A stretch of 64,000 nucleotides of DNA from Ideonella oryzae. Its GTDB lineage: Bacteria > Pseudomonadota > Gammaproteobacteria > Burkholderiales > Burkholderiaceae_C. The DNA lies in NCBI RefSeq assembly GCF_024055665.1, contig NZ_JAMXMC010000011.1, positions 1 to 64,000 on the forward strand, in the 5' to 3' direction. Shown here piece after piece: positions 3,664 to 61,800 of this stretch. The first letter of the stretch is position 1. Every line of letters begins with the position of its first letter. Below the pieces are notes generated by a model that was not told where the DNA came from, made no database searches, and saw only the letters and a list, made by a program, of their open reading frames with translations. A program made the translations under genes and the position numbers.

Positions 3664-3677
3664 ACACCCGCTGATGG

Positions 3678-3697
3678 CCGGCCGCCGCAGCGGCCGG
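3678..3697. terminator. GC-rich hairpin between convergent genes
   Basis: CCGGCCGC (3678-3685) pairs with GCGGCCGG (3690-3697) over a 4-base loop in the 42-bp gap between two convergent genes. There is no T-run, so termination activity is only inferred from position. Confidence 0.3.
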
Positions 3698-3705
3698 GGC
3701 GAGCC

Positions 3706-8835: not shown

Positions 8836-10377
8836 TCAGAGGGCGGCCGACGCGGGGCCCGCCTGTCCCGTCATCCAGCCGAGCAGGGCCCGACGATCCG
8901 CATCGTCGATGGGCACCCCCTCCCGCTGACACGCGGCGACGATCACCCCGCAGGTCGTGGCCACCAGGTCATCGAATCCATGGGCAGACGTCTCCGGATC
9001 GAAGCCATTGAAGACCAATGTGCGCAGCAGTCGCAGGCACTGCTCCCGACTGACCGGGAAACCCAGCTGCTGGCAATGGTCGCGCATGGACTTGGTGACC
9101 TGGGACAGTGAGTAGGGCTGGATGTCCAGGGCTTGCGCCAGCGCCTCGAGCTGGGCGCGGTACCGGCCTGGATCCAGCAGGGGCAGGTCGACCGCATCCA
9201 GCAGGCGAAGAACCGACGATTCCCTGGCAGGCGACACGCCTCCTTCGCTCAAAGTCGGGGCGGCGCTCATCTGGAGGACATGGCGATCTGGGTCCAGCGC
9301 CCAGCCCGCCAGTTGATGCCACTCGATTCTGATCCCGGCCAGATTCAGGGACTCCAGCAGCTTCTTCCAGCTGCCATGCCCAAGCCAGGATCCTTCGATC
9401 CCGGGAAAGCGTGCCCGCGCGATCTGGGCCAGGCGCGCGATGGGGACGGGGCGATCGGATGCGGCCACCTCCTCGCCAAGCCACTGCGTGACCTGCTCCA
9501 GCGAGGCCTGCGCAGGCCTCGGATCGGTCCGGTCCCTGCCTGCTGCGGTGCCCGCGTTGGCGGTGATAGATGGGCTTGGTGCGTTCTGGAGGCGACGCGG
9601 GTCGAGTATCGCGTTGAGTTCGCGGTCAATGCGCAGCGGATCCAGCGGAAGGCTGCGCAGCAATGCGATGAAGGTGCCCTTGCCGGCCCAGTCGGTGGCT
9701 GGCAGGGCCGGAATGCGCGTGGCCAGCGCCTTGGTCAGAGCCGGCAAAGGCACGGGCTGGTCGGCGTCATCCACCATCGCCCAGACCAGCGCTTCTGCCT
9801 GCACCAGCATGCTGTCCTCGCTCGGCACGGGCGGCGCCGGAACCAGCTCTTCCTCGTCGAAGCCCAGGGCCTCGTGAATGAAGGCCTCGGGGTCGATGAT
9901 GAGGTCCGCGCAGGCATCGTAGGACGCCGAGGTCGCTCCCGCGGCGAACATGGTCGTTCGCCGGTCCTCGCGACGCAGCTTGCGCAGCACCGGCGTGAAG
10001 TCGGCGTCGGCCGAGAAGACAATGAACTCGTCGTAGTGGGTCTTGGCTTGCAGGACATCGACAATGTCCAGCACCATGTGGATGTCCGTGCTGGTCTTGC
10101 CTGCCGAGGTCATCGGCGGACAGTCCACGATCTCGAAGCCCGCTCGGCTGAAGCCGATGCGGTAGCCCTGGTACATGACCGGGTTCAGGTAGCAGCGCCG
10201 CACCAGGACGCGCCGCTGCGAGGGGGCCTCCGGCATGCCCACGGCCGGCTGCAGGGTTGCCACCAGCCATTCCAGCCAACGGGAAGGTTGCCGTGCGAAG
10301 GCTTCGGCATAGCCCGGGCTCAGGCGCCGCAGGCCGGTGAAGACGTTGTCGAAATCAATGAAGAGGGCTGAGCGCAT
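8836..10377 (-). CDS. NYN-domain (LabA/limkain-type) nuclease-like protein with LOTUS-like domains
   Basis: About 513 residues. The N-terminal PIN-like NYN domain shows the acidic signature: FIDFDN at the start, then a TDIHMVLDIVD stretch, then FSADADF. Two later segments (about residues 185-255 and 290-370) have the size and spacing of winged-helix OST-HTH/LOTUS domains, each with a [W]xGKG/xGHGSWKKLL-like turn. NYN proteins are predicted metal-dependent RNases. The ATG at 10377 was chosen because MRSALFIDFDN is the natural domain start; an in-frame TTG at 10389 adds four residues, and neither has a clear ribosome site. No partner gene is obvious. Family assignment is good; the biological role is unknown. 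Confidence 0.8.
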   Translation of the reverse strand: MRSALFIDFDNVFTGLRRLSPGYAEAFARQPSRWLEWLVATLQPAVGMPEAPSQRRVLVRRCYLNPVMYQGYRIGFSRAGFEIVDCPPMTSAGKTSTDIHMVLDIVDVLQAKTHYDEFIVFSADADFTPVLRKLRREDRRTTMFAAGATSASYDACADLIIDPEAFIHEALGFDEEELVPAPPVPSEDSMLVQAEALVWAMVDDADQPVPLPALTKALATRIPALPATDWAGKGTFIALLRSLPLDPLRIDRELNAILDPRRLQNAPSPSITANAGTAAGRDRTDPRPAQASLEQVTQWLGEEVAASDRPVPIARLAQIARARFPGIEGSWLGHGSWKKLLESLNLAGIRIEWHQLAGWALDPDRHVLQMSAAPTLSEGGVSPARESSVLRLLDAVDLPLLDPGRYRAQLEALAQALDIQPYSLSQVTKSMRDHCQQLGFPVSREQCLRLLRTLVFNGFDPETSAHGFDDLVATTCGVIVAACQREGVPIDDADRRALLGWMTGQAGPASAAL

Positions 10378-10496
10378 CGGCAGATCCAAGGGAGCTTGGC
10401 GACTTTGACTGTGGCGAGCGCGTGCTGGATCCCATGGGCGCGCAGGCCGGTCGGTTCGGGGAAGGACTCACGGAGGTGGTGGGACGACCCCAGCCC

Positions 10497-11003
10497 TCAG
10501 GGCCCGGGGGAGGTCCAGCGCCTCCACCTTGCCCGCAGCGCCCGCGCCAGCCGCCAGGGCGCACTGGCGCGCACCCGTGCGAGCAGGGCCTCTTTCCAGG
10601 GTACCCAGCGGCCGTGCAGGCGGGCGAACCAGGTCAGGCGCATCAGGGCCGGCTGCGTGAGTGTGAAGAGCCGGGCCACGATGGCCGTGCCACCCAGCTT
10701 GGCCGCCAGGATCACGGCCAGCCCCAGCACCGCATGGCCGCGACTGACGGCCCACAGCGCCAGCAGCTTGACGGGCAGCAGGGCCAGCGTGGGCAGCGCG
10801 AACAGCGCCAGCGCGCCATAGGGTGGCAAGCGCCGCACCCAGGCCTCCAGCTGCCGAAAGCCCGGCCAGGCGCCGACCCAGGCCAGCAGGCGCTGCAGCG
10901 GCTCCCAGCCCCATTCCTCGAACAGGATGAGCAGCGCCAGCGGCCACTGCCACAGCGCATGCAGCAGGGCCTTCAGACGGGCGCGCCAGGCGCTGCCGGA
11001 CAT
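10497..11003 (-). CDS. Small multi-pass membrane protein, unknown function
   Basis: 168 residues with two or three hydrophobic segments in the middle (about residues 15-110) and an Arg-rich C-terminus. It starts 11 bp after the stop of the upstream pseudo-helicase gene on the same strand, so the two are probably co-transcribed. Similar short proteins are common and uncharacterised in Burkholderiales. No function is proposed. Confidence 0.7.
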   Translation of the reverse strand: MSGSAWRARLKALLHALWQWPLALLILFEEWGWEPLQRLLAWVGAWPGFRQLEAWVRRLPPYGALALFALPTLALLPVKLLALWAVSRGHAVLGLAVILAAKLGGTAIVARLFTLTQPALMRLTWFARLHGRWVPWKEALLARVRASAPWRLARALRARWRRWTSPGP

Positions 11004-11014
11004 GGGCGATCGCC

Positions 11015-13288
11015 TCAGGCCGCTGGAACGGCTTCGGGTTGGGCCGGCAGCAGGCAGGCCGCCAGGCCGGCGAGCCAGGCCTGCAGGGCCGGGCCGCGGC
11101 GCAGGCGCCCGGTGACGGTCGCGCCGGCCGCCTCCGGCGCGGGCAGGTGCTGGCGGCGTGCCGCGAGGCTGCCCTCGGGCAGCAACTGCCAGACCGGCAC
11201 GGCGCGCTGGGCGCGCGGCAGGCGCAGGCGCTGCAGGCGGCGCTCGCGCTGGGCCTCGTCCCAGGGGCGGTCCAGGTGGACGATCAGGGGCAGGCGCGGC
11301 GCGGTGGGAATGCGCGGCTCGCTGCCGGGCAGGCCGTCGGCCACCAGCAGCAGGCTGGGGCCCTCGGCATCGCGGAAGCGGCGCAGCACGGCATCGGCCT
11401 CGCGGTTGGCCGTGGGCAGCACCTGGGCCTGCCAGCCGGCCGCGGCCAGCCACTCGTTGAGCAGCTCGGCCCAGGCGGGCATCTCCTCGGCGGCGTCCGA
11501 CTCGGCAAACAGCACCACGCGGGACAGGCCGCGGCCCAGGGCCTCGGCCAGCAACTCGGGCAGGGCCACCAGCGCGGCCTCGCGCTCGGCCGCCTCGGCC
11601 TGGGCCAGCTGGGCGCGCAGCGCCAGCTGGTCGCTGTCGGACAGGAAGCCGCTGCGCTGCCAGCGCGCCAGCAGCGGCGTGGTGGCGGCCAGGGCCTGGG
11701 CGTGGCGCTGACGGGTCTCGTCGGGCCAGGCCACGGCGCGCTCTTCAGGCGCCCAGGCCGGCCACTGGTCGGCCACCTCGGCCCAGCCGCGCTGCAGCAG
11801 CAGCGGGCCCAGGGCTTCCGGCGTGGCGGCGGCCAGGCCCTGGGCCACGGCGCCGGTGCCCAGGCGGTCCAGCCGGCCCAGCCAGGCCTCGGCCTCGGCC
11901 GGATGGCTCTGCAGGCCGTCCTCGGGCGACAGCACCCACAGCCAGGGCGCGGCGGTGTCCTCTTCGGCCGGCAGGGCCAGCCAGCCGGGGCGCTGGTCCA
12001 CGATCAGCACGTCCAGGCCGGCCGGCAGCGGCTCGCCGGGGTGCAGCAGCTGCACCGAGGCGTCCGCGCTCAGCGGAGCCAGCAGGGCCTGCCAGCGCGC
12101 GCGCAGGGCCTCGTCGGCCTCGCCACGCAGACGCACCGCCACCTGACGGGCGCCGAAATGGCGCTGCACCAGCTGCCAGGCCAGGGCCAGCTCACGCTCG
12201 GGCTCCAGGCCCTCGGCGTCGGCCAGCAGGCAGGCACCGGCGCAGGCGGCGAAGAAGGCCGCTTCGCTCTGGGCCAGGCGGGCCGGCAGCGGGCCGGCGG
12301 CAGCGCCCTCGAACTCGGCGGCTTCCAGGCCCTGCGGGAAGCTGGCTTCCAGGTGGACGATGCGCTGCCGCAGGTCGCCCTTGAGCGCCAGCTGCTGCCA
12401 GACGGCCTCGTCCACGGTCAGCCGGTGGCCGCAGCGGGCAGCCACCGCCACCAGCTCGTCCAGGGCCTCGGTCTCGTTCAGGCTGAGGCGGCCATCGCGG
12501 TCCTGCCAGCGCGAGACAGCCTGGCGCAGCGTCTCGGGGCAGCCGTGGCCGGCCTCCCACTGCAGGCGGCGGGCGGCCAGGGTCAGGCGGCTGGGGGTGG
12601 GCGGTTGCGGGGCCGGGGCCGGCGCGGGCGGGGCTTCGACCACCGGCTCGGCACCGACCTCGGCACCGACCTCGGCTTCGGGCCGGGCCTCGGGCGCCGG
12701 CGACTGGGCCTCGGCGGCTTCCAGCGCGGGCAGCGGCGTTTCAGTGGGCGCTGGCGGGGCCACCGGCGCATCGGCCGGCGCCGGCTCGGGGCGCTCGGAG
12801 ACGGCGGGCACCGCGGCCTCCGCCACCGTCGCCTCGGACGCGGAGGCGGCCGGGCTGCGGCGGCGCGAGCGGCCGGATTTGCGGGCCGGAGGCTCGGTGG
12901 CCTCGGGCTCGACGGATGCCGGTACCGGCGCGGCGGCCGGGGTCTCGACCTCTGCGTCAGCCGGGGCCAAGGTGGCCACGGCCTCGGCCTCGGCTGCGGC
13001 CGGGCGCCGCTTGGCACTCTTGCGGGCCGGCGCGCGCGGGGTGGCCGGCTCGGCCTCAGCCAGCGCCTCAGGCTCAGGCGACGGAGGCTCGGCCACCTCT
13101 GCCTTGACGGCTGCCGTCTTGCGGGGCTTGGCCGGCGCACGCTTGCGGGCGGGCTTGGCGGCGGGGGCCTCGGGTTCGATGGACGCCTCAGGGGCAGAGG
13201 CGAGGATGGGGGCCGCGTCCAGCGCGGCCATCAGCGGCGCGTCGTCGGCCGGTGCGGCGGCGCGGCGGCGCCGGGAGGTGGTCGCCAT
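11015..13288 (-). CDS. Probable catalytically inactive SNF2-family helicase-like protein with Ala/Pro/Glu-rich N-terminus
   Basis: 757 residues. Residues 1 to about 215 are low-complexity and rich in Ala, Pro and Glu with Lys/Arg patches. The rest follows the order of a SNF2 helicase but with ruined motifs. ACLLADAEGLEPERELALAW (about residue 350) sits where ADEMGLGKTxQAL would be, so Walker A Gly-Lys-Thr is lost. DVLIVDQRP (about residue 425) sits where DEAH would be, then WVLSPEDGL as motif III. A helicase-C-like unit follows: VVLFAESD, then LLLVADGL, then IVHLDRPWDEAQRERRLQR at about 685, near motif VI. The frame is intact. The helicase relationship is my inference from motif order; a regulatory or structural role is possible. 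Confidence 0.65.
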   Translation of the reverse strand: MATTSRRRRAAAPADDAPLMAALDAAPILASAPEASIEPEAPAAKPARKRAPAKPRKTAAVKAEVAEPPSPEPEALAEAEPATPRAPARKSAKRRPAAAEAEAVATLAPADAEVETPAAAPVPASVEPEATEPPARKSGRSRRRSPAASASEATVAEAAVPAVSERPEPAPADAPVAPPAPTETPLPALEAAEAQSPAPEARPEAEVGAEVGAEPVVEAPPAPAPAPQPPTPSRLTLAARRLQWEAGHGCPETLRQAVSRWQDRDGRLSLNETEALDELVAVAARCGHRLTVDEAVWQQLALKGDLRQRIVHLEASFPQGLEAAEFEGAAAGPLPARLAQSEAAFFAACAGACLLADAEGLEPERELALAWQLVQRHFGARQVAVRLRGEADEALRARWQALLAPLSADASVQLLHPGEPLPAGLDVLIVDQRPGWLALPAEEDTAAPWLWVLSPEDGLQSHPAEAEAWLGRLDRLGTGAVAQGLAAATPEALGPLLLQRGWAEVADQWPAWAPEERAVAWPDETRQRHAQALAATTPLLARWQRSGFLSDSDQLALRAQLAQAEAAEREAALVALPELLAEALGRGLSRVVLFAESDAAEEMPAWAELLNEWLAAAGWQAQVLPTANREADAVLRRFRDAEGPSLLLVADGLPGSEPRIPTAPRLPLIVHLDRPWDEAQRERRLQRLRLPRAQRAVPVWQLLPEGSLAARRQHLPAPEAAGATVTGRLRRGPALQAWLAGLAACLLPAQPEAVPAA

Positions 13289-51097: not shown

Positions 51098-52192
51098 ATG
51101 ACCATGCAGGGGCGCATGCCCTTTCCCCATGATCCCGTCGGCCTGGACGCCCTGGACCAGTACGACACGGTGATCGATGCGAGGTCGCCCGCCGAATTCG
51201 CCGAGGACGCCATCCCCGGCGCCATCAACTGCCCGGTGCTGGACGACGAGGAGCGCCGCATCGTCGGCACGCTCTACAAGCAGGTCGGCGCCTTCGAGGC
51301 CCGGCGGGTGGGCGCGGCCATGGTGGCGGCCAATCTGGCGCGCCACCTGCGCGGCCCGCTGGCCGACAAGCCCACCAACTGGCGGCCGCTGGTCTACTGC
51401 TGGCGCGGCGGCCTGCGCAGCGGCTCCATGGTGACCTGGCTGCGCATGGTGGGCTGGCCCGCGGTGCAGTTGCGCGGCGGCTACAAGACCTGGCGCAGCC
51501 AGGTGATCGAGCGCATCGACACCCTGGCCCCGCGCCTGCCGCTGCGGGTGCTGTGCGGCCCCACCGGCAGCGCCAAGACGGCCATCCTGCAGGCTGCGGC
51601 CCGGGCCGGCGCCCAGGTGCTGGACCTGGAAGGCCTGGCCGCCCACAAGGGCTCGGTGCTGGGCGCGATGCCCGGGGTGGAACAGCCCTCGCAGAAGGCC
51701 TTCGAGACGCGGCTGGCCCAGGCCCTGGCCGGCTTCGACCTGGCGCGGCCGGTGTTCGTCGAGGCCGAGAGCCGCAAGATCGGCCGCATCGCCCTGCCCA
51801 ACGCCCTGGTGGAGCGGCTGCGGCAGAGCCCCTGCATCACGGTGGAGGCCCCGCTGGCCGCGCGGCTGGAGTACCTGCTGCGCGACTACGCCTATCTGGG
51901 CGCCGACGGCGAGGCCCTGGCCCAGACCCTGGGGCGGCTGCACGGCCTGCTGGCCAACGAGACCCTGGCGCGCTGGCAGGCCTGGGCCCGCGCCGGCGAG
52001 CTGGCCCCGCTGTTCGAGGCCTTGATGCGCGAGCACTACGACCCGGCCTATGCCCGCTCGCAGCGCGGCAACTTCCTGCAGCTGCAGACGGCGCAGGCCC
52101 TGCCGGCCGAGCGCCTGACCGCCGAGGCCGTCGCGGCCTTGGGGCCGGCGCTGCGGGCCTTGGGCGGGGATGGCGGCGAACCCGGCGCCTGA
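51098..52192 (+). CDS. mnmH: tRNA 2-selenouridine synthase
   Basis: 364 residues, the usual length. MnmH (SelU/YbbB) converts 2-thiouridine at the tRNA wobble position to 2-selenouridine. The N-terminal rhodanese domain carries the catalytic Cys101 in VYCWRGGLRSGSM, and a P-loop GPTGSAKT (about residue 155) precedes the second domain with VEAESRKIGRI. Several in-frame ATG codons occur at the start (51098, 51104, 51116). It stops seven bases before the convergent dsbD stop. Confidence 0.95.
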   Translation: MTMQGRMPFPHDPVGLDALDQYDTVIDARSPAEFAEDAIPGAINCPVLDDEERRIVGTLYKQVGAFEARRVGAAMVAANLARHLRGPLADKPTNWRPLVYCWRGGLRSGSMVTWLRMVGWPAVQLRGGYKTWRSQVIERIDTLAPRLPLRVLCGPTGSAKTAILQAAARAGAQVLDLEGLAAHKGSVLGAMPGVEQPSQKAFETRLAQALAGFDLARPVFVEAESRKIGRIALPNALVERLRQSPCITVEAPLAARLEYLLRDYAYLGADGEALAQTLGRLHGLLANETLARWQAWARAGELAPLFEALMREHYDPAYARSQRGNFLQLQTAQALPAERLTAEAVAALGPALRALGGDGGEPGA

Positions 52193-52198
52193 GCGCGC

Positions 52199-54103
52199 TC
52201 AGGTGCCCGGCAGCAGGCTGTCGAGGTGGCGGGCGAAGGCCGCGGCCTCGACATAGCCCACCACCCGGGCCCCGGTGCGCTCGCCGCCCCGGGGGTCGAA
52301 GAAGACGATGCCCGGCGGGCCGAACAGACTGAAGCGCTTGAGCAGGGCCCGGTCGGTCGCGCTGTTGGCCGTCACATCGGCCCGCAGCAGGGTCATGCGG
52401 CCCATGCGGGCCTGCACCGCCGGGTCGCGGAAGGTCAGGCGCTCCATCTCGCCGCAGGCCGTGCACCAGTCGGCCGACACATCCAACAGCACCGGCCGGT
52501 CACTGCGGGCCACCGCCTGCTCCAGCGCGGCCAGGTCGGCCACCTTCTCGAAGCGCGGCGCCTCTGCCTGCGGAGCCGCGGTGTTCCCCGGGGCCGCGGC
52601 AGCGTCGCGCAATGCCACCAGGTGGGCCAGGGGCTGCAGGGCATCACGCCCGCCCGAGAGGGCGCCCACCAGCTGGGCCGCGCCCACCAGGGCCAGCACC
52701 ATGCCCAGGCCCTTGCCCAGGTGCTGCGGCCAGCGGGCCTGGGGCGCCAGGCCGTCGAAGGCGCGCAGGCCCACGGCCACGCAGATCAAGAGCAGCGCCC
52801 AGCCGCCCATCACGCCCCATGCCGGCAGCACGGGGGACACCATCCACAGCGCCACCGCCAGCAGCAGCACGCCGAAGAAGCGCTTGACCTGCTCCATCCA
52901 GGCCCCGGCGCGCGGCAGCAGCGAGCCGGCGGACAGGCCCACCAGCAGCAGCGGCACGCTCATGCCTGCGGCCAGGCTGAACAGCGCTGCACCGCCCAGC
53001 AGCACGTCGCGGGTCTGGCCGATGTAGACCAGGGCCCCGGCCAGCGGCGCGGCCACGCAGGGGCCGACGATCAGCGCCGACAGGCCGCCCATCAGGAACA
53101 CGCCGCCCAGGCGCCCGCCCGGCAGGCGGGTGGAGGCCCCCACCATGCGCGACTGCCAGGCCTGCGGCAGCTGCAGTTCGTAGAAGCCGAACATCGACAG
53201 CGCCAGCAGCACCAGCAGCCCGGCGAAGGCGGCCAGCACCGCCGGCTTCTGCAGATAGGCGGCCAGGCCCTCACCCAGCAGGCCGGCGGCCACGCCCAGC
53301 GCGGTGTAGACCAGGGCCATGCCCAGGCTGTAGGCCAGCGACAGGGCCAGCCCGCGGGCCCGCGAGGGAGGCTGGCCGGCGCCCGCCTGGCCGACGATGA
53401 TGGAGGACAGGATGGGCACCATCGGCAGCACGCAGGGCGTGAAGGACAGCAGCAGGCCGGCCAGCAGGAACACGCCGGCGATGCTCAGCAGGCTGCCGGA
53501 GCGCAGCGCTCGCTCGACGCCGTTGCCGGACTCGGGGGAGGCCGCCAGGCTCACCCCCTGAGCCCTCTCCTGCGCCTGAGGCGCTGCGGCGCTGGCCGCC
53601 TGCGGCGCGTCCTGCGGCGCACCGTCGGCCAGCAGGCTGACCTGGCGCAGGCCGCCGGCATCGGCCTGCAGCAGCAAGGTCTGCGTCTGCGGCGGATAGC
53701 ATAGGCCGGCGTCGGCGCAGCCCTGGCTGTCCACCTCGATCCGCCAGCGGCCGGCGCCGGCCTGCACGGGCAGCGTGGCGTCAATCGGCTGGGCATAGAT
53801 CTCCACCTCCTTCTGCAGATTGGCGTCGTACTGGCGCTGGCCGGGCGGCAGGGCCAGCGGCCCCAGCGTGACGGCAGGGTCGGCCGCGCGCACCTGCAGT
53901 CGCTCGCGGTAGAGGTGGTAGCCCGGCGTCACCGCCCAGTGCAGAGTCAGCGCGCGGCCGCCGTCGGTGACCTGTACCTGCAAGGGAAAAGCCTGGGCTG
54001 GGTCCAGGAAATCGTCGGCCCGCGCGGGTGCCAGGGCCAGCCCCAGCGTGGCGGCCGCCAGCAGCGCCAGCGTCCGGCGCAAAAGGGAAGAGAACAGCGT
54101 CAT
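52199..54103 (-). CDS. dsbD: Thiol:disulfide interchange protein DsbD
   Basis: 634 residues with all three DsbD domains. After a signal peptide (about 1-29), the periplasmic alpha domain holds the Cys pair in GCADAGLCYPP. The eight-helix beta domain holds the membrane Cys pair in FTPCVLPMVPIL and VGPCVAAPLAG. The C-terminal thioredoxin domain has WCTACGEME. DsbD passes electrons from cytoplasmic thioredoxin to the periplasm. Its ATG overlaps the apbE stop by four bases, so it belongs to the redox operon and probably reduces the TlpA-like protein or apocytochrome thiols. Confidence 0.95.
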   Translation of the reverse strand: MTLFSSLLRRTLALLAAATLGLALAPARADDFLDPAQAFPLQVQVTDGGRALTLHWAVTPGYHLYRERLQVRAADPAVTLGPLALPPGQRQYDANLQKEVEIYAQPIDATLPVQAGAGRWRIEVDSQGCADAGLCYPPQTQTLLLQADAGGLRQVSLLADGAPQDAPQAASAAAPQAQERAQGVSLAASPESGNGVERALRSGSLLSIAGVFLLAGLLLSFTPCVLPMVPILSSIIVGQAGAGQPPSRARGLALSLAYSLGMALVYTALGVAAGLLGEGLAAYLQKPAVLAAFAGLLVLLALSMFGFYELQLPQAWQSRMVGASTRLPGGRLGGVFLMGGLSALIVGPCVAAPLAGALVYIGQTRDVLLGGAALFSLAAGMSVPLLLVGLSAGSLLPRAGAWMEQVKRFFGVLLLAVALWMVSPVLPAWGVMGGWALLLICVAVGLRAFDGLAPQARWPQHLGKGLGMVLALVGAAQLVGALSGGRDALQPLAHLVALRDAAAAPGNTAAPQAEAPRFEKVADLAALEQAVARSDRPVLLDVSADWCTACGEMERLTFRDPAVQARMGRMTLLRADVTANSATDRALLKRFSLFGPPGIVFFDPRGGERTGARVVGYVEAAAFARHLDSLLPGT

Positions 54104-55080
54104 GCGGAAGGCTCCATGCCGGGCGCGACCAGTTCGCCCCGGGGGTCCAGGGCGGCGTAGGCCACGCCTTGGGATTGCAGAAAGGCCGGCGCCTGCGGCC
54201 CGGCCAGCATGGCCAGGGTGCTCAGGGCGCCGGCGGCCAGGCAGGACGGTGCGGCGACCGTGACCGACTGCCAGTGCGAAACCGGCCAGCCGGTGCGCGG
54301 GTCCAGGATGTGGCAGTAGCGCCGGCCGTCCTGCTCGAAGTAGCGCTCGTAGTCGCCGCTGGTGGCCAGGGCGCCGTCGTGCACCGCCCACTCCAGCGCC
54401 ACCGCGCCGGGCGCGCGTGGGTGGGCCACGCCCAGGCGCCAGGGCCGGCCGTCGGGGTGGGGACCCAGCACCCGCAAGTCCCCGCCCAGGTTGACCAGGC
54501 CGCTGCGCACGCCGGCCTCCAGCAGCAGGGTGGCGGCGCGGTCCACCGCGTATTCCTTGCCGATGCCGCCGAAGTCGATCTCCATGCCGGCCCGCGGCAG
54601 GGCGATGGCCTCGCCGGTCCAGACCACCCGGTCCCAGCCGATGCGCTCGCGGCAGCGGGCCAGCTCGGTCTCGGAGGGCACGCGGGCCGCCTTGAAGTCC
54701 CAGGCCTGGCGCAGCACGCCGGAGCTGAGGTCGAAGCGGCCCTCGCTCTGGCGGTAGAGCAGGTCGGCGAAGTCCAGCAGCTGGGCGGTCTCGGCATCCA
54801 CCGGCACGGGGCGACCGCTGCCGGCTGCCACGTTGATGCGCGAGACGATGCTGTCGGGCCGGTAACGCGAGTAGCGCTGCTCGATGCGGCGCACCTCGTC
54901 CACCGCGGCCTGCGCCAGCGCCTGGGCCTGCGCCTCGTCGGCCACACCCGCCAGGCGGATGCGGCAGGGCGAGGCCATGGCGGTGAATTCCACCAGCCAG
55001 CCCGTCTCCACGTCCGCCCGCGGCTGCGGACGGTGTGGGGACTGCCGGGTCAGAAGCGCCGCGCCAGCCCGAGTTGCCAT
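54100..55080 (-). CDS. apbE: FAD:protein FMN transferase (ApbE)
   Basis: 326 residues. ApbE moves FMN from FAD onto Thr of exported flavoproteins. Hallmarks are FTAMASPCRIRL, the RYSRYRPDSIVSRIN segment, FGGIGKEYAVD, NLGGDLRVLG and the metal site HILDPRTGWPV. The annotated start overlaps the DUF3570 gene by 31 bp; an internal start at the first MASPC block would shorten it. No obvious FMN-acceptor protein is in the operon, so its target is unknown. It is translationally coupled to dsbD downstream. Confidence 0.95.
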   Translation of the reverse strand: MATRAGAALLTRQSPHRPQPRADVETGWLVEFTAMASPCRIRLAGVADEAQAQALAQAAVDEVRRIEQRYSRYRPDSIVSRINVAAGSGRPVPVDAETAQLLDFADLLYRQSEGRFDLSSGVLRQAWDFKAARVPSETELARCRERIGWDRVVWTGEAIALPRAGMEIDFGGIGKEYAVDRAATLLLEAGVRSGLVNLGGDLRVLGPHPDGRPWRLGVAHPRAPGAVALEWAVHDGALATSGDYERYFEQDGRRYCHILDPRTGWPVSHWQSVTVAAPSCLAAGALSTLAMLAGPQAPAFLQSQGVAYAALDPRGELVAPGMEPSA

Positions 55081-56213
55081 TGCGTGGCCGTCAGAGGGTC
55101 GACACCGGGCGAGCCATGGCCGCCCAGGCGCAAACTGCTGCGCTGCTCGTACTGCTCGCCCTTCACATCCAGCGTCCAGTCCGGCTCGAACTGCCAGGCC
55201 AGCTTCAGGCCCAGCCCGAGGGCACCGAAGGCCGACATGCGCTGGTCGGTGCTGCTGTCGGTGGGCGTGCCATAGGGCGCCGGGTAGACGTTGGGGTCGG
55301 ACACCGGGTCGTAATAGAACGAAGCGGCCCGCTGGGTGTAGTAGCGCAGCGAGGGCGTGAGCACCAGCGTGTCCGACAGACGCTTGTCGGCCGCCAGCTC
55401 CAGCGTGTGGGATCGGATACCGAAGCTGTCATCGTAGAAGCGGTAGCTCAGCTTGCTGGCCACACCCAGGTCAGACCACCAGTGGTTCCAGCGCACCAGG
55501 GCGATGGTGGCGTTGCGCTGGCGGGGCCGGGCGTCGAACAGCTTGTAGGGGTCGCTGAAGTAGCCGCGGCCGCGCGTGAGCGTCAGGTTGGCCTGGACGA
55601 TGTCCTGCGGCGTCAGGGCCTGGGTGACACCGAGCAGCCATTCGGTGGTGCGGCGGGTCTCGTTGTCCACCAGGTCGTTGACCGGGTTGATGCGGTCGTG
55701 CGCCGCGCCCACGCCCCAGTTCCAGGTGGTGTTGTGGTCCTCGCTGGCCACGGTGCCGGCCAGCGACAGCGCGTTGGACACGTAGTCGTGCTCGTCCGAA
55801 TGCGAGGCGCCGACGCTCAACGTGCTGCGCTCGAAGTAGCGGGTCAGGCGCAGGTCGCCGGCCTTGCGGTCGTCGTGCATGCGGCTGGCCCCGGTGACGT
55901 CGGTGTAGTAGCGCGGCGAAGCGCCCGAGACGTCGTCGTGCGTGACCGAGCCCTCGACCGACCACTCGCGGCCGATCGGGGCCATCAGGTAGGCCGAGGG
56001 CGACTTCACGCTCAGGCGCTTGAGGCCCGGCTGGCGGTCCTCGTAGCTGGAGTACTTCAGCGCCACCACCCCCTGCTCGGGGGCCTCTTCGGCCTGGGCG
56101 GTGGCGGGCAGCACGGCGGTCACCACAGCAGGCATGACCCCGGGCAGGGCGCAGGCGGCCAGGGCGATCAGGCCCCAGCCGGACGCGGTCTTGCGGTCCT
56201 CAGTTGCAGCCAC
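55050..56213 (-). CDS. DUF3570 outer-membrane beta-barrel protein
   Basis: About 387 residues from the GTG at 56213, which has GGAGGAGG five bases upstream and overlaps the end of the DUF4266 gene. A signal peptide (to about residue 42) is followed by a beta-rich protein: ALKYSSYEDRQPGLKRLSVKSPS, many aromatic-capped strands, and a terminal strand ATQWQLGLARRF ending in Phe, typical of outer-membrane barrels. DUF3570 genes commonly sit with DUF4266, TlpA and ApbE genes. The barrel may house or export a redox partner (inference). Confidence 0.85.
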   Translation of the reverse strand: MAATEDRKTASGWGLIALAACALPGVMPAVVTAVLPATAQAEEAPEQGVVALKYSSYEDRQPGLKRLSVKSPSAYLMAPIGREWSVEGSVTHDDVSGASPRYYTDVTGASRMHDDRKAGDLRLTRYFERSTLSVGASHSDEHDYVSNALSLAGTVASEDHNTTWNWGVGAAHDRINPVNDLVDNETRRTTEWLLGVTQALTPQDIVQANLTLTRGRGYFSDPYKLFDARPRQRNATIALVRWNHWWSDLGVASKLSYRFYDDSFGIRSHTLELAADKRLSDTLVLTPSLRYYTQRAASFYYDPVSDPNVYPAPYGTPTDSSTDQRMSAFGALGLGLKLAWQFEPDWTLDVKGEQYEQRSSLRLGGHGSPGVDPLTATQWQLGLARRF

Positions 56214-56448
56214 AGCCGCCTCCTCCCACGCCTTCGCCACCGGACGAGGCTTCCTTGCTGGCCGTCACGTGGCCGACAAAGCGTGCCTCCAGCGGATCGC
56301 GGTCCAAGCGCATCTCCGGGCGCGCCAGATCGCCCTTTTCCCAGGGTTGCGGGCCGGCGCAGCCGCCCAACAGGCTCAGCGCCAGCAGGCCCAGGCCGGC
56401 CAGTCGCCCGCGGTGCACGGGGCGCCCGGCATGGATGACAGCGCTCAT
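56200..56448 (-). CDS. DUF4266 lipoprotein
   Basis: 82 residues. The lipobox is LLGGC (about Cys31), followed by AGPQPWEKGDLARPEM, the family signature, and the striking Gly/Cys tail ending GGGGCGCN. The terminal GCGCN motif suggests metal or cofactor binding or a covalent modification site. It overlaps TlpA upstream by four bases and DUF3570 downstream by 14, so it is a core part of the operon. Its biochemical role is unknown. Confidence 0.85.
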   Translation of the reverse strand: MSAVIHAGRPVHRGRLAGLGLLALSLLGGCAGPQPWEKGDLARPEMRLDRDPLEARFVGHVTASKEASSGGEGVGGGGCGCN

Positions 56449-57035
56449 GCCAAGCCTCCCTGCCGCAGCGGTGCGGCCTGCGCCAGGGCCTGCTGAAGCT
56501 GGGCTTCCAGCGCGGCGCGGTCTTCCGGGCGGAAGCCGCTGTGCACGAAGCGGACGCGGCCGTCGGCGCCGATCAGCACGCTGGTGGGCATGCCCTTGAT
56601 GGCGTAGCGGCGGGGTGTCTCGCCCTTGGGGTCGAACGCCACGGTGAAGCGGGCCGGCACCTCGGCCAGGAAGCGCTCGGCGTCGGGGGTGCGGGCATCG
56701 ACATTGACACCCACCACCTGCAGGCCGCGTGGCCCCAGCTTGGCCTGGATCTCGTTCATCCAGGGAAAGGACTGGCGGCAGGGGCCGCACCAGGACGCCC
56801 AGAAGTCCAGGTAGACGACCTTGCCGCGCAGGGCCGAGAGCTGGACGCGGCCGGCGGGGCCGCTGAGGTCGAAGTCGGGCGCCGGGCCGGTGGCCTCGGT
56901 GCCCTCGGCCGCGTGCGCCGGGGTCAGGCCCAGCCAGGGCAGGGACAGGGCGGTCAGGCCCATGCTCAGCCCAGCGGCCAGTTGGCGGCGGCTCTGGTCA
57001 GGGCCGGTCGTCGGGAAGCGATCAGGGCGTGTCAT
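56445..57035 (-). CDS. Exported TlpA-like thioredoxin-family protein
   Basis: 196 residues. AAGGAG lies nine bases before the ATG at 57035. The N-terminus contains SRRQLAAGL then a hydrophobic run, which resembles a Tat signal. The thioredoxin fold has the active site WASWCGPC (Cys83, Cys86) and the cis-Pro loop GMPTSVLIG. TlpA-like proteins are periplasmic thiol reductases, often serving cytochrome or metal-centre maturation. DsbD at the end of the operon could keep it reduced. Confidence 0.9.
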   Translation of the reverse strand: MTRPDRFPTTGPDQSRRQLAAGLSMGLTALSLPWLGLTPAHAAEGTEATGPAPDFDLSGPAGRVQLSALRGKVVYLDFWASWCGPCRQSFPWMNEIQAKLGPRGLQVVGVNVDARTPDAERFLAEVPARFTVAFDPKGETPRRYAIKGMPTSVLIGADGRVRFVHSGFRPEDRAALEAQLQQALAQAAPLRQGGLA

Positions 57036-58350
57036 CAGTGCGGTCTCCTTGGGAACGGCGGCGTTGGAGCAGCACCCCGGCGGACAGCGCCAGCAGGGTG
57101 GGCCAGACGGGGTCGAGCGGGGTGTCGGGGCGGCCGATGCTGCAGCCCCCACCACCCGTATTGGTGTCCGTGCCCGGAGCGGGTGCCGGGCTGGGCGCTG
57201 GGGCCGGGCTGGGGGCCGGGCTGGGGGCCGGGCTGGGGGCCGGCGTGGGTGCGGGCGTCGGCGCGGGGGGCGGTGCCGGGCTGGGCGCCGGAGAAGGTGC
57301 CGGGGCAGGCGCGGGCGACGGGCTGGCCACGCCGGTGCCGGTCAGGCTGACCCCCGGGGGGTTGGTGGCATTGCTGGTGGTGAGCTGCAGGCTGGCGGTG
57401 CGCGCGCCCGCGGCGGTGGGCTGGAAGCCGACGGTGACGGTGCAGCTCGCCCCCGGGGCCAGCGTCACGCCCGTGGCACAGCTGCCCGACAGGCTGAAGT
57501 CCGTCGCCTGGGTGCCGGAGAGCAGCACCGCGGTGAGGGTGGCGGAGGCATTGCCGGTGTTGACCAGGGTGAGGGTCTGGCCGGCCGCCGCCTGGCCGAC
57601 GGTGGTGTCGGCAAAGCCCACGGTGCTCACCCCCCCTTGCCAGCCCAGCAGCGCCAGCGCGGCGGCCGCCCCGGTGCCGCTGACGGCGACGGCATGCGGC
57701 GAATTGGAGGCATTGGTCTGCAGGGTGACCGTGCCGCTGTACGAGCCGGCCAGCGCCGGCGTGAAGTTCAGGCTGATCGCGCAGTTGGCGCCCGCGGCCA
57801 GGCTGGTCGGGCAGTTGCTGCCGGCGGTGAAGACCGGCTGGCTGCTGCTGAGCGTCCCCACGCTGAGGGCCGCGTTGCCGCTGTTGGTCAGCGTCACCGT
57901 CTGGGTGGCCGTCAGCCCCAGGGTCACCGAGCCGAAGCCGACGCTGGTGGTGGACAGACTCACGGCTGGCGCGGTGGACACCGGGTAATAGGTCGGTGTG
58001 CGGCCGGTCTGGCCGGCAATATAGGCCGCCAGATCGTTCAGGTCCGACTCGGTGAGCTGCCCCTGCAGTGCGCGCATCTGGCTGACACCGGCGATGCCGG
58101 TGGCGATGGTGTAGGCGCTCGCTCCGCTGGCGATCTTGTTCTGGTTTCGGCTGGGCGCGCTGCCGTGGCAGGCTGAAGCGGCACAGGTCTGGGTGCCGGT
58201 GACGATCACTTGCTGGTAAAGGGCCTGGCCGTGCGTGGCGTCCTGGGCCCAGGCGGCTGGCACGGGCGCCAGCACGGTGAGCCCCACCAGGGCGCCCGCG
58301 CGTCGGACGCGACGGGCCGGCGAAGGGCAAGGAGTAGGGAAAGGTGTCAT
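57022..58350 (-). CDS. Cytochrome-like choice-of-anchor-D protein with JDVT-CTERM-like sorting signal
   Basis: 442 residues. After a signal peptide (about 1-35) comes a cytochrome-c-like unit with an unusual CX4CH heme motif (Cys56-AASA-Cys61-His62) and a candidate Met ligand in SQMRALQG, ending DLAAYIAG. Two Ig-like choice-of-anchor-D repeats follow (VGFGSVTLGLTATQTVTLTN about 130; a second near 240), then a Pro/Ala repeat linker. The tail is GGGGCSIGRP, a short hydrophobic helix and RRRSQG, the pattern of JDVT-CTERM sorting signals. The presumed processing protease is the gene directly upstream. GGGAG lies five bases before the ATG. Confidence 0.85.
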   Translation of the reverse strand: MTPFPTPCPSPARRVRRAGALVGLTVLAPVPAAWAQDATHGQALYQQVIVTGTQTCAASACHGSAPSRNQNKIASGASAYTIATGIAGVSQMRALQGQLTESDLNDLAAYIAGQTGRTPTYYPVSTAPAVSLSTTSVGFGSVTLGLTATQTVTLTNSGNAALSVGTLSSSQPVFTAGSNCPTSLAAGANCAISLNFTPALAGSYSGTVTLQTNASNSPHAVAVSGTGAAAALALLGWQGGVSTVGFADTTVGQAAAGQTLTLVNTGNASATLTAVLLSGTQATDFSLSGSCATGVTLAPGASCTVTVGFQPTAAGARTASLQLTTSNATNPPGVSLTGTGVASPSPAPAPAPSPAPSPAPPPAPTPAPTPAPSPAPSPAPSPAPAPSPAPAPGTDTNTGGGGCSIGRPDTPLDPVWPTLLALSAGVLLQRRRSQGDRTDDTP

Positions 58351-58366
58351 CTCGGCTCCCGAAAAA

Positions 58367-58696
58367 TCAGACCAGGGGGCGCAGCAGGCCCCACCAGAGT
58401 GCGTTGAACAGCGCATGCAGGGCGATGCAGGGCCAGAGGCGGCGCGTGCGCAGGTAGACCCCGCCCAGCAGCAACGCCGGCAAGGCCGTGGCCCAGGCCC
58501 AGGGGCCGGGCCGCCACAGCGCATGGGCAGCGGCAAAGGCTCCGGCCGTGAGCAGCACGCTCAAGACCCCCGAGACGCCCCGGCGCAGCAGAGCGTCCTG
58601 CAGCCCGGCCCGGAAGACGGTCTCCTCCAGCACCGGGGCTGCGCCCAGCGCGAGGCCGGCAGCCACCGCATCGACCATCTCCTGTGCCCCCCACAT
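58367..58696 (-). CDS. Compact CPBP-family glutamic-type intramembrane protease (MrtJ-like)
   Basis: 109 residues, almost all membrane-spanning. The three CPBP (Abi/CAAX-type) motifs are present: EETVFR (Glu24, Glu25, Arg29), FAAAH (His58) and HALFN (His94, Asn98). An in-frame TAA eight codons before the ATG rules out a longer form, so it is shorter than most family members and lacks their N-terminal helices. It ends 16 bp before a gene whose product carries a JDVT-CTERM-like tail. In known systems of this type a dedicated CPBP protease processes that tail, so this is probably the MrtJ-type sorting enzyme. Confidence 0.8.
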   Translation of the reverse strand: MWGAQEMVDAVAAGLALGAAPVLEETVFRAGLQDALLRRGVSGVLSVLLTAGAFAAAHALWRPGPWAWATALPALLLGGVYLRTRRLWPCIALHALFNALWWGLLRPLV

Positions 58697-58727
58697 GTCT
58701 CCACGATGGGGCAGATGTTATTTATCA

Positions 58728-58746
58728 ATGTGCAATTTGCACATTT
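58728..58746. promoter_or_regulatory. Perfect 19-bp palindrome upstream of the redox operon
   Basis: AATGTGCAATTTGCACATT has two 9-bp arms (AATGTGCAA/TTGCACATT) around one central base. It lies 32-50 bp before the first gene of the operon in an AT-rich stretch, the right place for a repressor or activator operator. The regulator is not identified, and no regulator gene is adjacent. Confidence 0.65.
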
Positions 58747-58814
58747 AATGCTTGCAACAGCATGTTGCGCTCTCGGTCTTTCCTGATCTTTCAGGCGGCC
58801 TTAAGAAACACCAC

Positions 58815-58847
58815 AAGGGAAAAGCAAAGGCCGCCCGAAGGCGGCCT
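58815..58847 (-). terminator. Rho-independent terminator after putA
   Basis: On the minus strand an 8-bp stem AGGCCGCC/GGCGGCCT with a TTCG tetraloop (plus-strand 58828-58847) is followed by TTTGCTTTTC. It separates putA from the redox operon in the same direction. Confidence 0.88.
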
Positions 58848-58875
58848 GGAGGGGACAGCGGCGGGACGTCGGCGC

Positions 58876-61800
58876 TCAATGCCCGCCGGCCAGCAGCGCC
58901 GCGTTGCCGCCGGCCGCCGCGGTGTTGATGGTCACGCACTGCTCGGCGCAGAAGCGGTAGAGGTAGTGCGGCCCGCCGGCCTTGGGGCCGGTGCCCGACA
59001 GGCCCTCGCCGCCGAAGGGCTGCACGCCCACCACCGCACCGATCATGTTGCGGTTGACGTAGACGTTGCCGATGCGAGCCTGGTCGGCCAGGCGCTCGGC
59101 CCGGCTGTCGATGCGGGTTTGCAGGGCGAAGGTCAGGCCGTAGCCCAGGGCGTTGATCTGGGCCACCAGCGTGGCCGGGTCGCCCGACCAGCGCACCACA
59201 TGCAGCACCGGGCCGAACAGCTCCTGCTGCAACTGGCCCACGCTGGCGAGTTCGAAGGCCACCGGGGCGACCAGGCGCGGCACGGCGGCCCCGGCCGGCA
59301 GCGGTGTTTCGCCGATCAGCGTGGCCTCGCGGCGCAGGCGGGCGATCTGGGTCTGCAGGTTCTGGAAGGCCTCGTCGTCGATCACCGGGCCGACATCGGT
59401 GGCCCAGTCCGCCGGGTCGCCCAGGCGCAGCGCCAGCATGGCGCCGCGCAGCATGGCCAGGATGCCGTCGGCCACGCCCTCGTGCAGGCACAGCAGACGC
59501 AGGGCCGAGCAGCGCTGGCCGGCCGAGCGGAAGGCGCTCTGCACCACCGCGTCGACCACCTGCTCGGGCAGGGCGGTGGAGTCGACCACCATGGCGTTGA
59601 GGCCGCCGGTCTCGGCGATCAGCGGCACGATGGGACCGTCCTTGGCGGCCAGCGTGCGGTTGATGATGCGGGCCACCGCGGTGGAGCCGGTGAAGCACAC
59701 GCCGGCCGTGGCCGGGTGGGCCACCAGCGCGGCGCCCGTCGTCTCGCCCGGGCCGTGCAGCAGCGCCAGCGCATCGGCCGGCACGCCGGCCTCGTGCAGC
59801 AGGGCCACCATGCGGGCGGCCACCGCGGGGGTCTGCTCGGCCGGCTTGGCGGCCACCGCATTGCCGGCCACCAGCGCGGCCACCACCTGGCCGGTGAAGA
59901 TGGCCAGCGGAAAGTTCCAGGGGCTGATGCAGACGAAGACGCCGCGGCCGTGCAGGCGCAGGGTGTTGCGCTCGCCGGTGGGGCCAGGCAGCTCCTGCGG
60001 CTGCAGCCGTGCCTGGGCCTGCTGGGCGTAGTAGCGGCAGAAGTCGACCGCCTCGCGCACCTCGGAGATGGCGTCACCCAGGGTCTTGTGCGCCTCCTTC
60101 ACCAGCAGGCCGCAGAACTCAGGCAGGCGGGCCTCCAGCGCGTCGGCGGCGCGGCGCAGCACCGCCGCGCGCTCGTCCACCGGGCGGTGGTTCCAGCCGG
60201 CCCCGCCCTGGGCCAGGCGCCGCATCGCGTCGGCCACGTCGGCCTGGCTGGCCAGCGGCACCGGGTCCACCCGGGTCGTAGCGATGGCGGCCGCCAGGGG
60301 CTGGCGGCTTTCCAGGCAGGTGGGGTCGGCGCCCGCCGCGTTGGGTCGCTCCAGCCCATAGAGATCGCGCGGCAGCGGCAGGCCTTCGGCCGGGCCGGCA
60401 CCGTCATGGGCCTCCAGCAGCGGCGAGCGCAGCAGCTCGGCCGGGGCCACGCTCGGGTCGGCCAGCTGGTGGACGAAGGAGGAGTTGGCGCCGTTCTCCA
60501 GCAGACGGCGCACCAGGTAGGCCAGCAGGTCGCGGTGCTCGCCCACCGGGGCGTAGACGCGGCAGGACACGCGCGGATCCTTCAGCACCTCGCGGAACAC
60601 GCCATCGCCCATGCCGTGCAGGCGCTGCAGCTCGAAGTCCTGCCCCGGCACCGCGCCGACCTTCTCGGCCATCTGCAGCAGGGCGGCGATGGTGCCAGCG
60701 TTGTGGCCGGCGAACTGCGGGAAGATCACGTCGCGGTGGGCCAGCAGGGCGCGGGCGCAGGCCAGGTAGTTCACATCGGTGTGCGGCTTGCGCGTGAAGA
60801 CCGGGTAGGCCGGCAGGCCCATCTCCTGGGCACGCTTGACCTCGCCGTCCCAGTAGGCGCCCTTGACCAGGCGCACCATGAAGCGCAGCCCATGGCGGCG
60901 GGCGATGGCGGCCACCGCCTCCACCACCGGCAGCGCACGGCTCTGGTAGGCCTGCACCGCCAGGCCGAAACCGCGCCAGCGCGGCAGGGCCGCCGCGATG
61001 CGGCCGGCCAGGGCGTCCAGCAACTCCAGCGACAGTTCCAGCCGGTCCACCTCCTCGGCGTCGATGGTGAGGTTCATGTCGGCCGCGGCGGCCTGCTCGA
61101 TGAGGGCCCAGACCCGCGGCAGCAACTCGGCATGCACGCGCCCGCGCTGGGCGTCTTCGTAACGCGAGAAGAGGGCGGAGAGCTTGATGGAGATGCCATC
61201 GCGCCCTTCCGGCCCCACCGAGGCGTCGCCCTGGTGCCGCGCGATGGCCGCGATCGCGTTCAGGTAGCTGGCCTGGTAGCGCTCGGCGTCGGCCTCGGTG
61301 CGGGCGCCCTCGCCCAGCATGTCGTAGGAAAAGCGCAGCTGCGGTTGGGCCTTGCGCTGTTTGTCGGCTTCGGCCTGGGCCTCGTCGATGGAGCGGCCCA
61401 GCACGAACTGCCGGCCCAGCAGCTGGATGGCGCGCACCGTGGCCGCCACCACGCCGCGGGCGCCCAGCCGGGTCAGCAGACCGCCGGATTCGCCCGCCTC
61501 GGGCAGGAACTTCTGCGACATGGCCAGCGCGGTCGCCGACAGCCCGGCCAGCATGCCGCCACTGCCGTCGTTGGCGCTGAAGTCGGCTCGGCCCAACTGG
61601 TCGGCCGTCAGCGCCACCGCGGTCTCCACATCGGGCACCCGCAACAGGGCCTCGGCCAGGCGCATCAGGGCCAGGCCCTCGGGACGGGAGATGGGGTACT
61701 CGCGCAGCAGCGACTCCATAGCCCAGAAGGGCGCCGGGTGGGCGCGCACCGCCTCCACCCAGGGCGCGGCCACGGCCACGGCCGCGGCCCAGTCCAGGCC

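Follow-up and report, generated by a model that had tools for sequence, protein, structure and literature searches.

A seven-gene operon of Ideonella oryzae unites a DUF3570 flavinylation cluster with a MrtJ/JDVT-CTERM sorting pair

Two described systems come close to the operon presented here. The first comprises the DsbD-type flavinylation clusters, of which the text of Meheust et al. (2021, eLife; PMC8238504) counts 285, with DUF3570 in 227 and DUF4266 in 221. In that text flavin is shown at two [S/T]GA[S/T] sites of the DUF3570 protein of Chlorobium luteolum, redox cycling is proposed for the CxC end of DUF4266, and the function of the DUF3570 flavinylation system is termed uncertain. The second is a protein-sorting system in which the protease MrtJ and one JDVT-CTERM target form two-gene neighbourhoods in beta- and gammaproteobacteria, as found in an in silico study by Haft cited in the text of PMC11980579. 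The same text describes MrtX, a related protease required for normal surface placing, which cleaves a C-terminal signal that contains a Cys; cleavage was shown for TraA, and lipidation at the Cys was proposed. We analysed a stretch of 64,000 nucleotides of Ideonella oryzae (contig NZ_JAMXMC010000011.1, positions 1 to 64,000; hereafter the window), in which an operon on the minus strand, from 58696 to 52199, brings both systems together. Both halves, DUF3570 flavinylation and MrtJ/JDVT sorting, are already described separately, and it is their recurrent union that is new. No description of this union was found in the literature searched, whose coverage ended short of supplements, the original Haft study and most subscription papers.

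The likeness to the DsbD-type clusters (PMC8238504) extends to DsbD, a thioredoxin-like protein, DUF4266, a DUF3570 protein with two [S/T]GA[S/T] sites and ApbE. In contrast, the text on these clusters names no cytochrome, CPBP protease or JDVT protein, although its supplementary tables may hold such neighbours, and here these are the genes that head the operon. A further point of difference is that the ApbE of window-type operons is mostly without a recognisable export signal. As in the MrtJ/JDVT pairs of PMC11980579, the MrtJ gene adjoins one JDVT-CTERM target. The difference from the pairs in that text is that here a redox operon of seven genes begins with them and the target is a cytochrome; in some lineages, moreover, the signal lies within a longer protein, with TlpA fused behind it.

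The seven genes are, in order, those of MrtJ, a JDVT-CTERM cytochrome, a TlpA/ResA-like protein, DUF4266, DUF3570, ApbE and DsbD (Table 1). A previous sequence-only reading of this DNA had given the same seven minus-strand genes in this order, with overlaps or very short gaps between them, and both points were borne out by profile matches and by the sequence. A gap of 16 nt separates mrtJ from the JDVT gene, and all other junctions are overlaps: 14 nt for JDVT/tlpA, 4 nt for tlpA/DUF4266, 14 nt for DUF4266/DUF3570 (given a DUF3570 start at GTG 56213), about 31 nt for DUF3570/apbE (ATG 55080) and 4 nt for apbE/dsbD. GTG 56213 is the favoured start of DUF3570, with GGAGGAGG ahead of it; a possible alternative is the earlier GTG at 56240. 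By the profile matches a single cluster encodes the thioredoxin-like protein together with DsbD, ApbE, DUF3570 and DUF4266; six of the seven genes pass the cut-off of a specific curated model, and the TlpA gene passes that of the general Redoxin model PF08534. Independent promoters between the genes would count against a single unit, and a scan of positions 51900-59000 returned no sigma-70-like promoter (0.1 in shuffled sequences). The same interval holds five terminator-like hairpins (1.3 in shuffles), two of which lie within dsbD on the minus strand. As the same order recurs in several genera, the gene set is not due to chance, and the seven-gene unit is a real, conserved operon. Its genes are found jointly in many bacteria of soil and water.

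We looked at recurrence in 299 genomes of the family and, in a thinner sample, in 399 genomes of the order. Within the family DUF4266 was found in 63 of the 299 genomes (85 places), and MrtJ exceeded its cut-off in 29 (30 places). Twelve of the 30 MrtJ places were within 10 kb of DUF4266, compared with about 0.1 expected, and a further linked MrtJ, in genome G471, reached 74.1 bits, just below the cut-off of 75. The two were present together in 17 of the 299 genomes (Fisher p = 3e-6, kinship uncorrected). The sequence-only reading had named such a neighbourhood survey as one way to refute it, and the survey shows the protease/target pair and the DUF3570/ApbE/DsbD group to be linked far beyond chance. 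Most of the linked loci keep the window's gene order. Three are rearranged, with mrtJ and dsbD on the other strand (G264), mrtJ behind dsbD (G548) or dsbD in front (G460), and no DsbD was seen in the linked stretches of G529, G492 and G611.

A second set of loci, with named species, came from a profile search whose query alignment comprised 14 DUF3570 proteins, 10 being from MrtJ-linked loci. These are the best 80 of at least 421 DUF3570 matches, a selection that is skewed to close kin and gives no rate for DUF3570 overall; the 65 loci with at least 6 kb of upstream sequence served as the counting base. The named loci span Ideonella, Rhizobacter, Rugamonas, Janthinobacterium, Undibacterium and Stagnimonas (Nevskiaceae), with many near kin (Duganella, Massilia), and the nearest named relative of the window's DUF3570 protein among the matches listed is that of Ideonella sp. 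B508-1, with 97% identity. MrtJ and a heme-bearing JDVT protein were both present in 46 of the 65 loci (at least five of these being contigs already in the family survey), a JDVT protein alone in two (L154 and L162), MrtJ alone in none, and neither in 17. A DUF3570 tree was built with 65 rows, namely the window plus 64 named loci (L171 being omitted); the JDVT label required nine parsimony changes on it, at least four of them forced by well-supported branches. MrtJ and the JDVT protein are gained and lost jointly. The idea that protease and tailed protein are constant partners of the module did not hold: the pair is not obligatory, since 17 of the 65 modules do without it.

Table 1. Positions of the operon's genes and associated signals in the window; FAD, flavin adenine dinucleotide; FMN, flavin mononucleotide.
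Feature	Position	Strand	Evidence (bits; curated cut-off in brackets)
MrtJ, JDVT-CTERM-system protease of 109 aa (glutamic, intramembrane, CPBP/Rce1-like)	58367..58696	-	NF033192 83.5 (75); PF02517 66.4 (22.4)
JDVT-CTERM cytochrome	57022..58350	-	NF012200 119.5; NF033191 43.3 (27)
JDVT-CTERM sorting signal within cytochrome gene	57055..57156	-	NF033191 43.3 (27)
TlpA/ResA-like exported thioredoxin (WCGPC)	56445..57035	-	PF08534 81.4 (26.6)
DUF4266 small lipoprotein	56200..56448	-	PF14086 78.2 (27)
DUF3570 outer-membrane barrel, two flavinylation motifs	55050..56213	-	PF12094 189.7 (25)
ApbE, FAD:protein FMN transferase	54100..55080	-	PF02424 277.5 (25.6)
DsbD: N-terminal domain, transmembrane part, thioredoxin domain	52199..54103	-	NF001419 548.7 (330)
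Candidate operator ATGTGC-N5-GCACAT, about 32 bp before mrtJ start	58728..58744	.	exact-match searches
Terminator-like hairpin, interval between upstream gene and operon	58828..58847	-	promoter/terminator scan

The protease carries the motifs EExxxR, H and HxxxN, and an alignment of 47 shows no variation at residues E24, E25, R29, H58, H94 and N98. Each of the 47 MrtJ proteins scanned has an NF033192 match at E <= 0.001, an E-value criterion and not the curated cut-off. The tail of the window's cytochrome, GGGGC..DP followed by a transmembrane segment and RRR, is made up of the expected Cys motif, transmembrane segment and Arg cluster. NF033191 was matched at E 0.01 by all 49 tails scanned, the window's included, and at this E-value it has a single match in the genome of the window (G000). 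In the scan with a JDVT tail pattern, where frames judged by eye to be chance were kept out of the counts, no JDVT protein was picked up in about 17 MrtJ loci. By analogy with the related systems, delivery of the cytochrome to the surface would probably need type II secretion system (T2SS) genes from outside the operon, and GspD was over its cut-off in 12 of the 13 genomes with linked MrtJ and DUF4266. The description of the module as self-contained is not borne out, given that these outside genes and a lipid transferase would probably be required.

The target of the protease has a signal-peptide-like start, a cytochrome c domain with one heme motif (CX4CH), two choice-of-anchor D (Ig-like) domains, a Pro/Ala/Ser stalk and the JDVT-CTERM tail. 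Its Pfam match is below threshold (Cytochrome_CBB3, 22.1 vs 27), but two relatives, L065 and L068, do exceed theirs. A Met comes 20-33 residues after the heme motif in 52 of 52 named relatives, and the AlphaFold2 (AF2) model of the window's heme domain is helical, with a predicted local distance difference test score (pLDDT) of 92.7. What had been read as a cytochrome-like protein is, by its motif, Met position and predicted fold, probably a c-type cytochrome, the fold matches being weak. In the surveys a heme motif was present in 15 of the 17 complete JDVT proteins near the module vs 3 of 18 elsewhere (Fisher p = 3e-5, kinship uncorrected; L088 and L097, truncated by contig ends, are excluded). 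Both heme-free proteins near the module belong to the G264 locus, one of them being a lytic polysaccharide monooxygenase (LPMO), and the heme-bearing proteins away from it are those of G654, G680 and G610. Of the unlinked JDVT proteins three were scanned; two are alpha/beta hydrolases and the third is a subtilase.

Outer-membrane multiheme conduits of the MtrCAB kind move electrons across the outer membrane by means of a barrel and a surface cytochrome. The window operon, with its barrel and its putative surface cytochrome, would work similarly. It is nevertheless not a member of this kind, since there is usually one heme motif per cytochrome, the flavin motifs are on the barrel and a multiheme protein is absent: the NCBIfam and Pfam profiles found none in the operon, nor any match to a further heme-protein model. 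The cytochrome of G460 has two heme motifs.

In 8 of the 17 modules without the MrtJ/JDVT pair the same place in the operon is occupied by a JDVT-free cytochrome. Four of these eight end in a different tail, GGGA-hydrophobic-R (L101:6039-8561, L109:6454-9264, L125:7319-9772 and L130:5121-9275), and no MrtJ was found in these four loci. Their GGGA..RR tails matched no NCBIfam sorting model. The midcut-by-XrtH family was tried and set aside, its matches (37 to 48 bits vs a cut-off of 45) lying on the repeat part. By its sequence this tail is possibly an unrecognised sorting signal.

The AF2 model of the DUF3570 protein has 16 strands (pLDDT 82.3; predicted template modelling score 0.80), and the nearest solved folds are outer-membrane barrels; a sequence search gave no solved structure at E 0.1. 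The two flavinylation motifs of the window protein, SGAS and TGAS, are placed by the model at residues 105-108 of a 396-residue frame, at the end of strand 3, and at 116-119, just ahead of strand 4, both on a single low-confidence loop (residues 109-118 under 50). If both barrel ends are in the periplasm, the strand order turns this loop to the outside, and the long loops of the model are on that same side; the flavin loop is therefore probably on the outer side of the barrel.

ApbE binds FMN to motifs of this type. We found [ST]GA[ST] motifs in 101 of 112 DUF3570 stretches (8 present twice), and an ApbE gene was within 1.5 kb of 92 of these 101, compared with none of the 11 motif-free stretches. 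Two of the nine motif-bearing stretches without a nearby ApbE are at contig ends. In L114, L120, L130 and L097/L158 both motifs are present and no ApbE lies within 1.5 kb despite the contig continuing; in these loci ApbE may be supplied from elsewhere. We also looked for an export-signal-like hydrophobic stretch, a proxy that is not a signal-peptide predictor, that depends on the width of the region and in which some contigs are counted twice. With the wider region it was present in only 9 of 90 ApbE, vs 101 of 108 TlpA open reading frames (ORFs) and 107 of 112 DUF3570; with the narrow region it was present in 1 of 87 ApbE, 3 more having no room for it. By this proxy the window's ApbE has no recognisable export signal either. 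Since ApbE is mostly without one, the barrel protein may receive its FMN while still in the cytosol and be exported afterwards, a qualification of the earlier reading, in which ApbE attaches FMN to exported proteins.

A second DUF4266/DUF3570 locus is present in the same genome, on the plus strand (G000:C23, L050). It encodes a TlpA (9398-9904), a DUF4266 (about 9905-10153) and a DUF3570 protein (10134-11291) that is without both motifs. An ApbE (2987-4321) is encoded about 6 kb upstream, and between them lies a large heme-motif protein with a hydrazine-synthase-alpha-like domain (PF18582, 66.6 bits).

DUF4266 has a lipobox, LGGC, recognised by eye, and its C-terminus is GGGGCGCN. A CxC followed by one residue ends 113 of 113 homologous DUF4266 ORFs, in 110 of them as CGCN. 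For this end the sequence-only reading had suggested a possible modification or metal site, besides which there is the redox cycling proposed in PMC8238504. In the stretch 56200-56240, GGAGGAGG appears by eye to serve both as glycine codons of the DUF4266 tail and as a Shine-Dalgarno-like sequence for the DUF3570 GTG. We considered the GGGGC of DUF4266 as a cut-down JDVT signal and dropped the idea, because no transmembrane segment follows it and DUF4266 is common without MrtJ. The DsbD gene is one of two DsbD_TM genes in the genome.

Members of the DsbD family pass electrons from cytosolic thioredoxin to the periplasm, that is, outward. We propose, giving it an even chance, that the operon encodes an electron path that is driven by thiols and leads outward to a monoheme cytochrome anchored on the surface. 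DsbD would bring electrons from cytosolic thioredoxin into the periplasm. There the TlpA-like protein, along with the CxC of DUF4266, would relay them onward and reduce the FMN that ApbE would have bound to the DUF3570 barrel, an FMN predicted here from the motifs. From the barrel's FMN loop, predicted on the outer side, the electrons would pass to the JDVT cytochrome. MrtJ would have cut the C-terminal signal of this cytochrome, leaving it lipid-anchored on the surface, probably with the help of the T2SS, if the analogy with MrtX and MYXO-CTERM holds, and the surface cytochrome would in turn reduce an acceptor outside the cell.

Several observations weigh against this proposal. We infer the direction of electron flow from DsbD alone, and as a rule no acceptor is encoded nearby. 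That the flavin loop would lie outside is a reading of the model's strand count and loop lengths. In a Foldseek search with the heme domain the top matches were mostly c-type cytochromes and were weak, with a best E of 0.27. In 9 of the 65 modules no cytochrome stands at the expected place, and two of the heme-bearing JDVT proteins away from the module (G654 and G680) come from genomes in which only motif-free DUF3570 was seen. We also rejected MrtJ as an order-wide partner of DUF4266, as MrtJ was present in 16 and DUF4266 in 44 of the 399 genomes, and both in only 4.

Put together, the parts would make up a trans-outer-membrane conduit of thiols and covalent flavins with no multiheme chain, a fuller picture that we advance tentatively and hold to be possible rather than probable. 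In this picture the CxC of DUF4266 would enter the DUF3570 barrel and feed two FMNs at one outer loop, and these would reduce a monoheme cytochrome placed by a protease with one detectable substrate in most linked genomes. Flavinylation would be cytosolic and precede export, and in some lineages a cytochrome-thioredoxin polyprotein would be cut at an internal signal. The union of the two systems gives DUF3570 flavinylation a likely partner and destination, and one branch of MrtJ/JDVT sorting a redox job. If the path is real, relatives in Massilia, Duganella, Janthinobacterium, Rhizobacter, Ideonella and Stagnimonas hold a compact route of extracellular electron transfer, one that would escape surveys of multiheme proteins.

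DsbD and TlpA might instead chiefly reduce the Cys pair of the apocytochrome for heme attachment, in the manner of ResA/CcdA, with the flavin part being separate. The window's TlpA gene reaches no NCBIfam cut-off and its best match is ResA (NF002854, 87.5 vs 170); the genome encodes no DsbE (TIGR00385) or NrfE/CcmF-type protein (TIGR00353) over cut-off, which makes a ResA/CcdA-type route plausible, and the cytochrome-TlpA fusions of two lineages would fit as well. However, the 9 cytochrome-free modules of the 65 retain DUF4266, DUF3570 and mostly TlpA and ApbE (TlpA was not seen in L119 and L135), and the genome has a second DsbD and eight other sub-cut-off DsbE/TlpA-like places. As this explanation also leaves DUF4266 and the DUF3570-bound FMN unaccounted for, we regard it as unlikely.

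In the two fused lineages a single open frame holds the cytochrome, an internal JDVT signal and TlpA. Twelve complete fused loci belong to one Oxalobacteraceae group, a 13th (L175) being cut by a contig end, and G264, from the window's family, is a separate case. The frame runs from the cytochrome through repeats, the JDVT signal, a short Arg-rich loop and a second hydrophobic stretch with a signal-peptidase-like AxA end to TlpA, and the internal signal matches the JDVT model with 48.5 bits in L152 and 48.9 bits in G264. Within the first 10 positions after the Arg cluster, 8 of the 13 fused frames examined have no ATG, GTG or TTG, and in the other five a GTG or TTG occurs, at position 3 or 6; the G264 frame has none of these codons within the first 28 positions. 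Separate initiation of TlpA is therefore unlikely in these eight frames and in G264. A precedent is the internal MYXO-CTERM signal of MXAN_5598, according to the text of PMC11980579. The fusions resemble MXAN_5598 and midcut-by-XrtH (NF033207) in having a sorting signal mid-protein, but here what follows the signal is an exported thioredoxin that has a signal-peptide-like segment of its own. They would be a natural test of internal sorting signals.

The candidate operator ahead of mrtJ, ATGTGC-N5-GCACAT, was searched for in fetched loci totalling 2.57 Mb. There are eight exact matches, each of them heading this operon, on seven contigs (L067 and L108 are the same, and the L105 contig begins at the operator with the cytochrome gene next). 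Among the 46 named MrtJ loci it is present in only four, none from Oxalobacteraceae, and it is found in front of the G570 module too, which has no MrtJ. The palindrome is a candidate regulon signal common to the window, L179, L183, L189 and L193. The window's own genome has two operator places, and the second, its only other copy, lies directly ahead of genes for a cytochrome c and for a protein resembling flavocytochrome c sulfide dehydrogenase (PF21706, 116.7 bits). This copy fits the reverse direction of flow, in which the surface cytochrome would take electrons from an outside donor (a metal, a sulfur compound or a polymer) and the flavin/thiol chain would import them. We consider such an inward flow quite unlikely, as the DsbD family is established to move electrons outward and a single shared site is thin evidence.

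The operator shared with the sulfide dehydrogenase-like locus could also suit a role in repair or protection, where reduced surface thiols, flavin and heme would render oxidants or reactive sulfur harmless at the envelope without any net respiration, and thioredoxin-type parts do dominate the operon. Yet no peroxidase or dedicated reductase domain is over cut-off in the operon, and a system of this role would not usually have surface sorting dedicated to it; we hold it to be improbable. Finally, a supply of electrons to a surface copper LPMO may hold for G264, where an AA10 LPMO with a JDVT tail is encoded between dsbD and mrtJ (L048:17986-19035; PF03067 153.8 bits; JDVT 27.4 vs 27), but as a general role it was rejected and is very improbable, LPMO_10 being found in 12 of the 299 family genomes, in 1 of the 13 linked genomes and not in the window's own, and no other fetched locus encoding a relative of the G264 enzyme.

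Exact operator copies were present in 11 of 18 genomes searched; of the copies examined, three adjoin DUF6502 or DUF5666 genes and others stand by no relatable gene. At the borders of the operon, the gene upstream of the hairpin at 58847-58828 is putA-like, by eye alone, and downstream of dsbD a convergent ORF on the plus strand ends at 52192.

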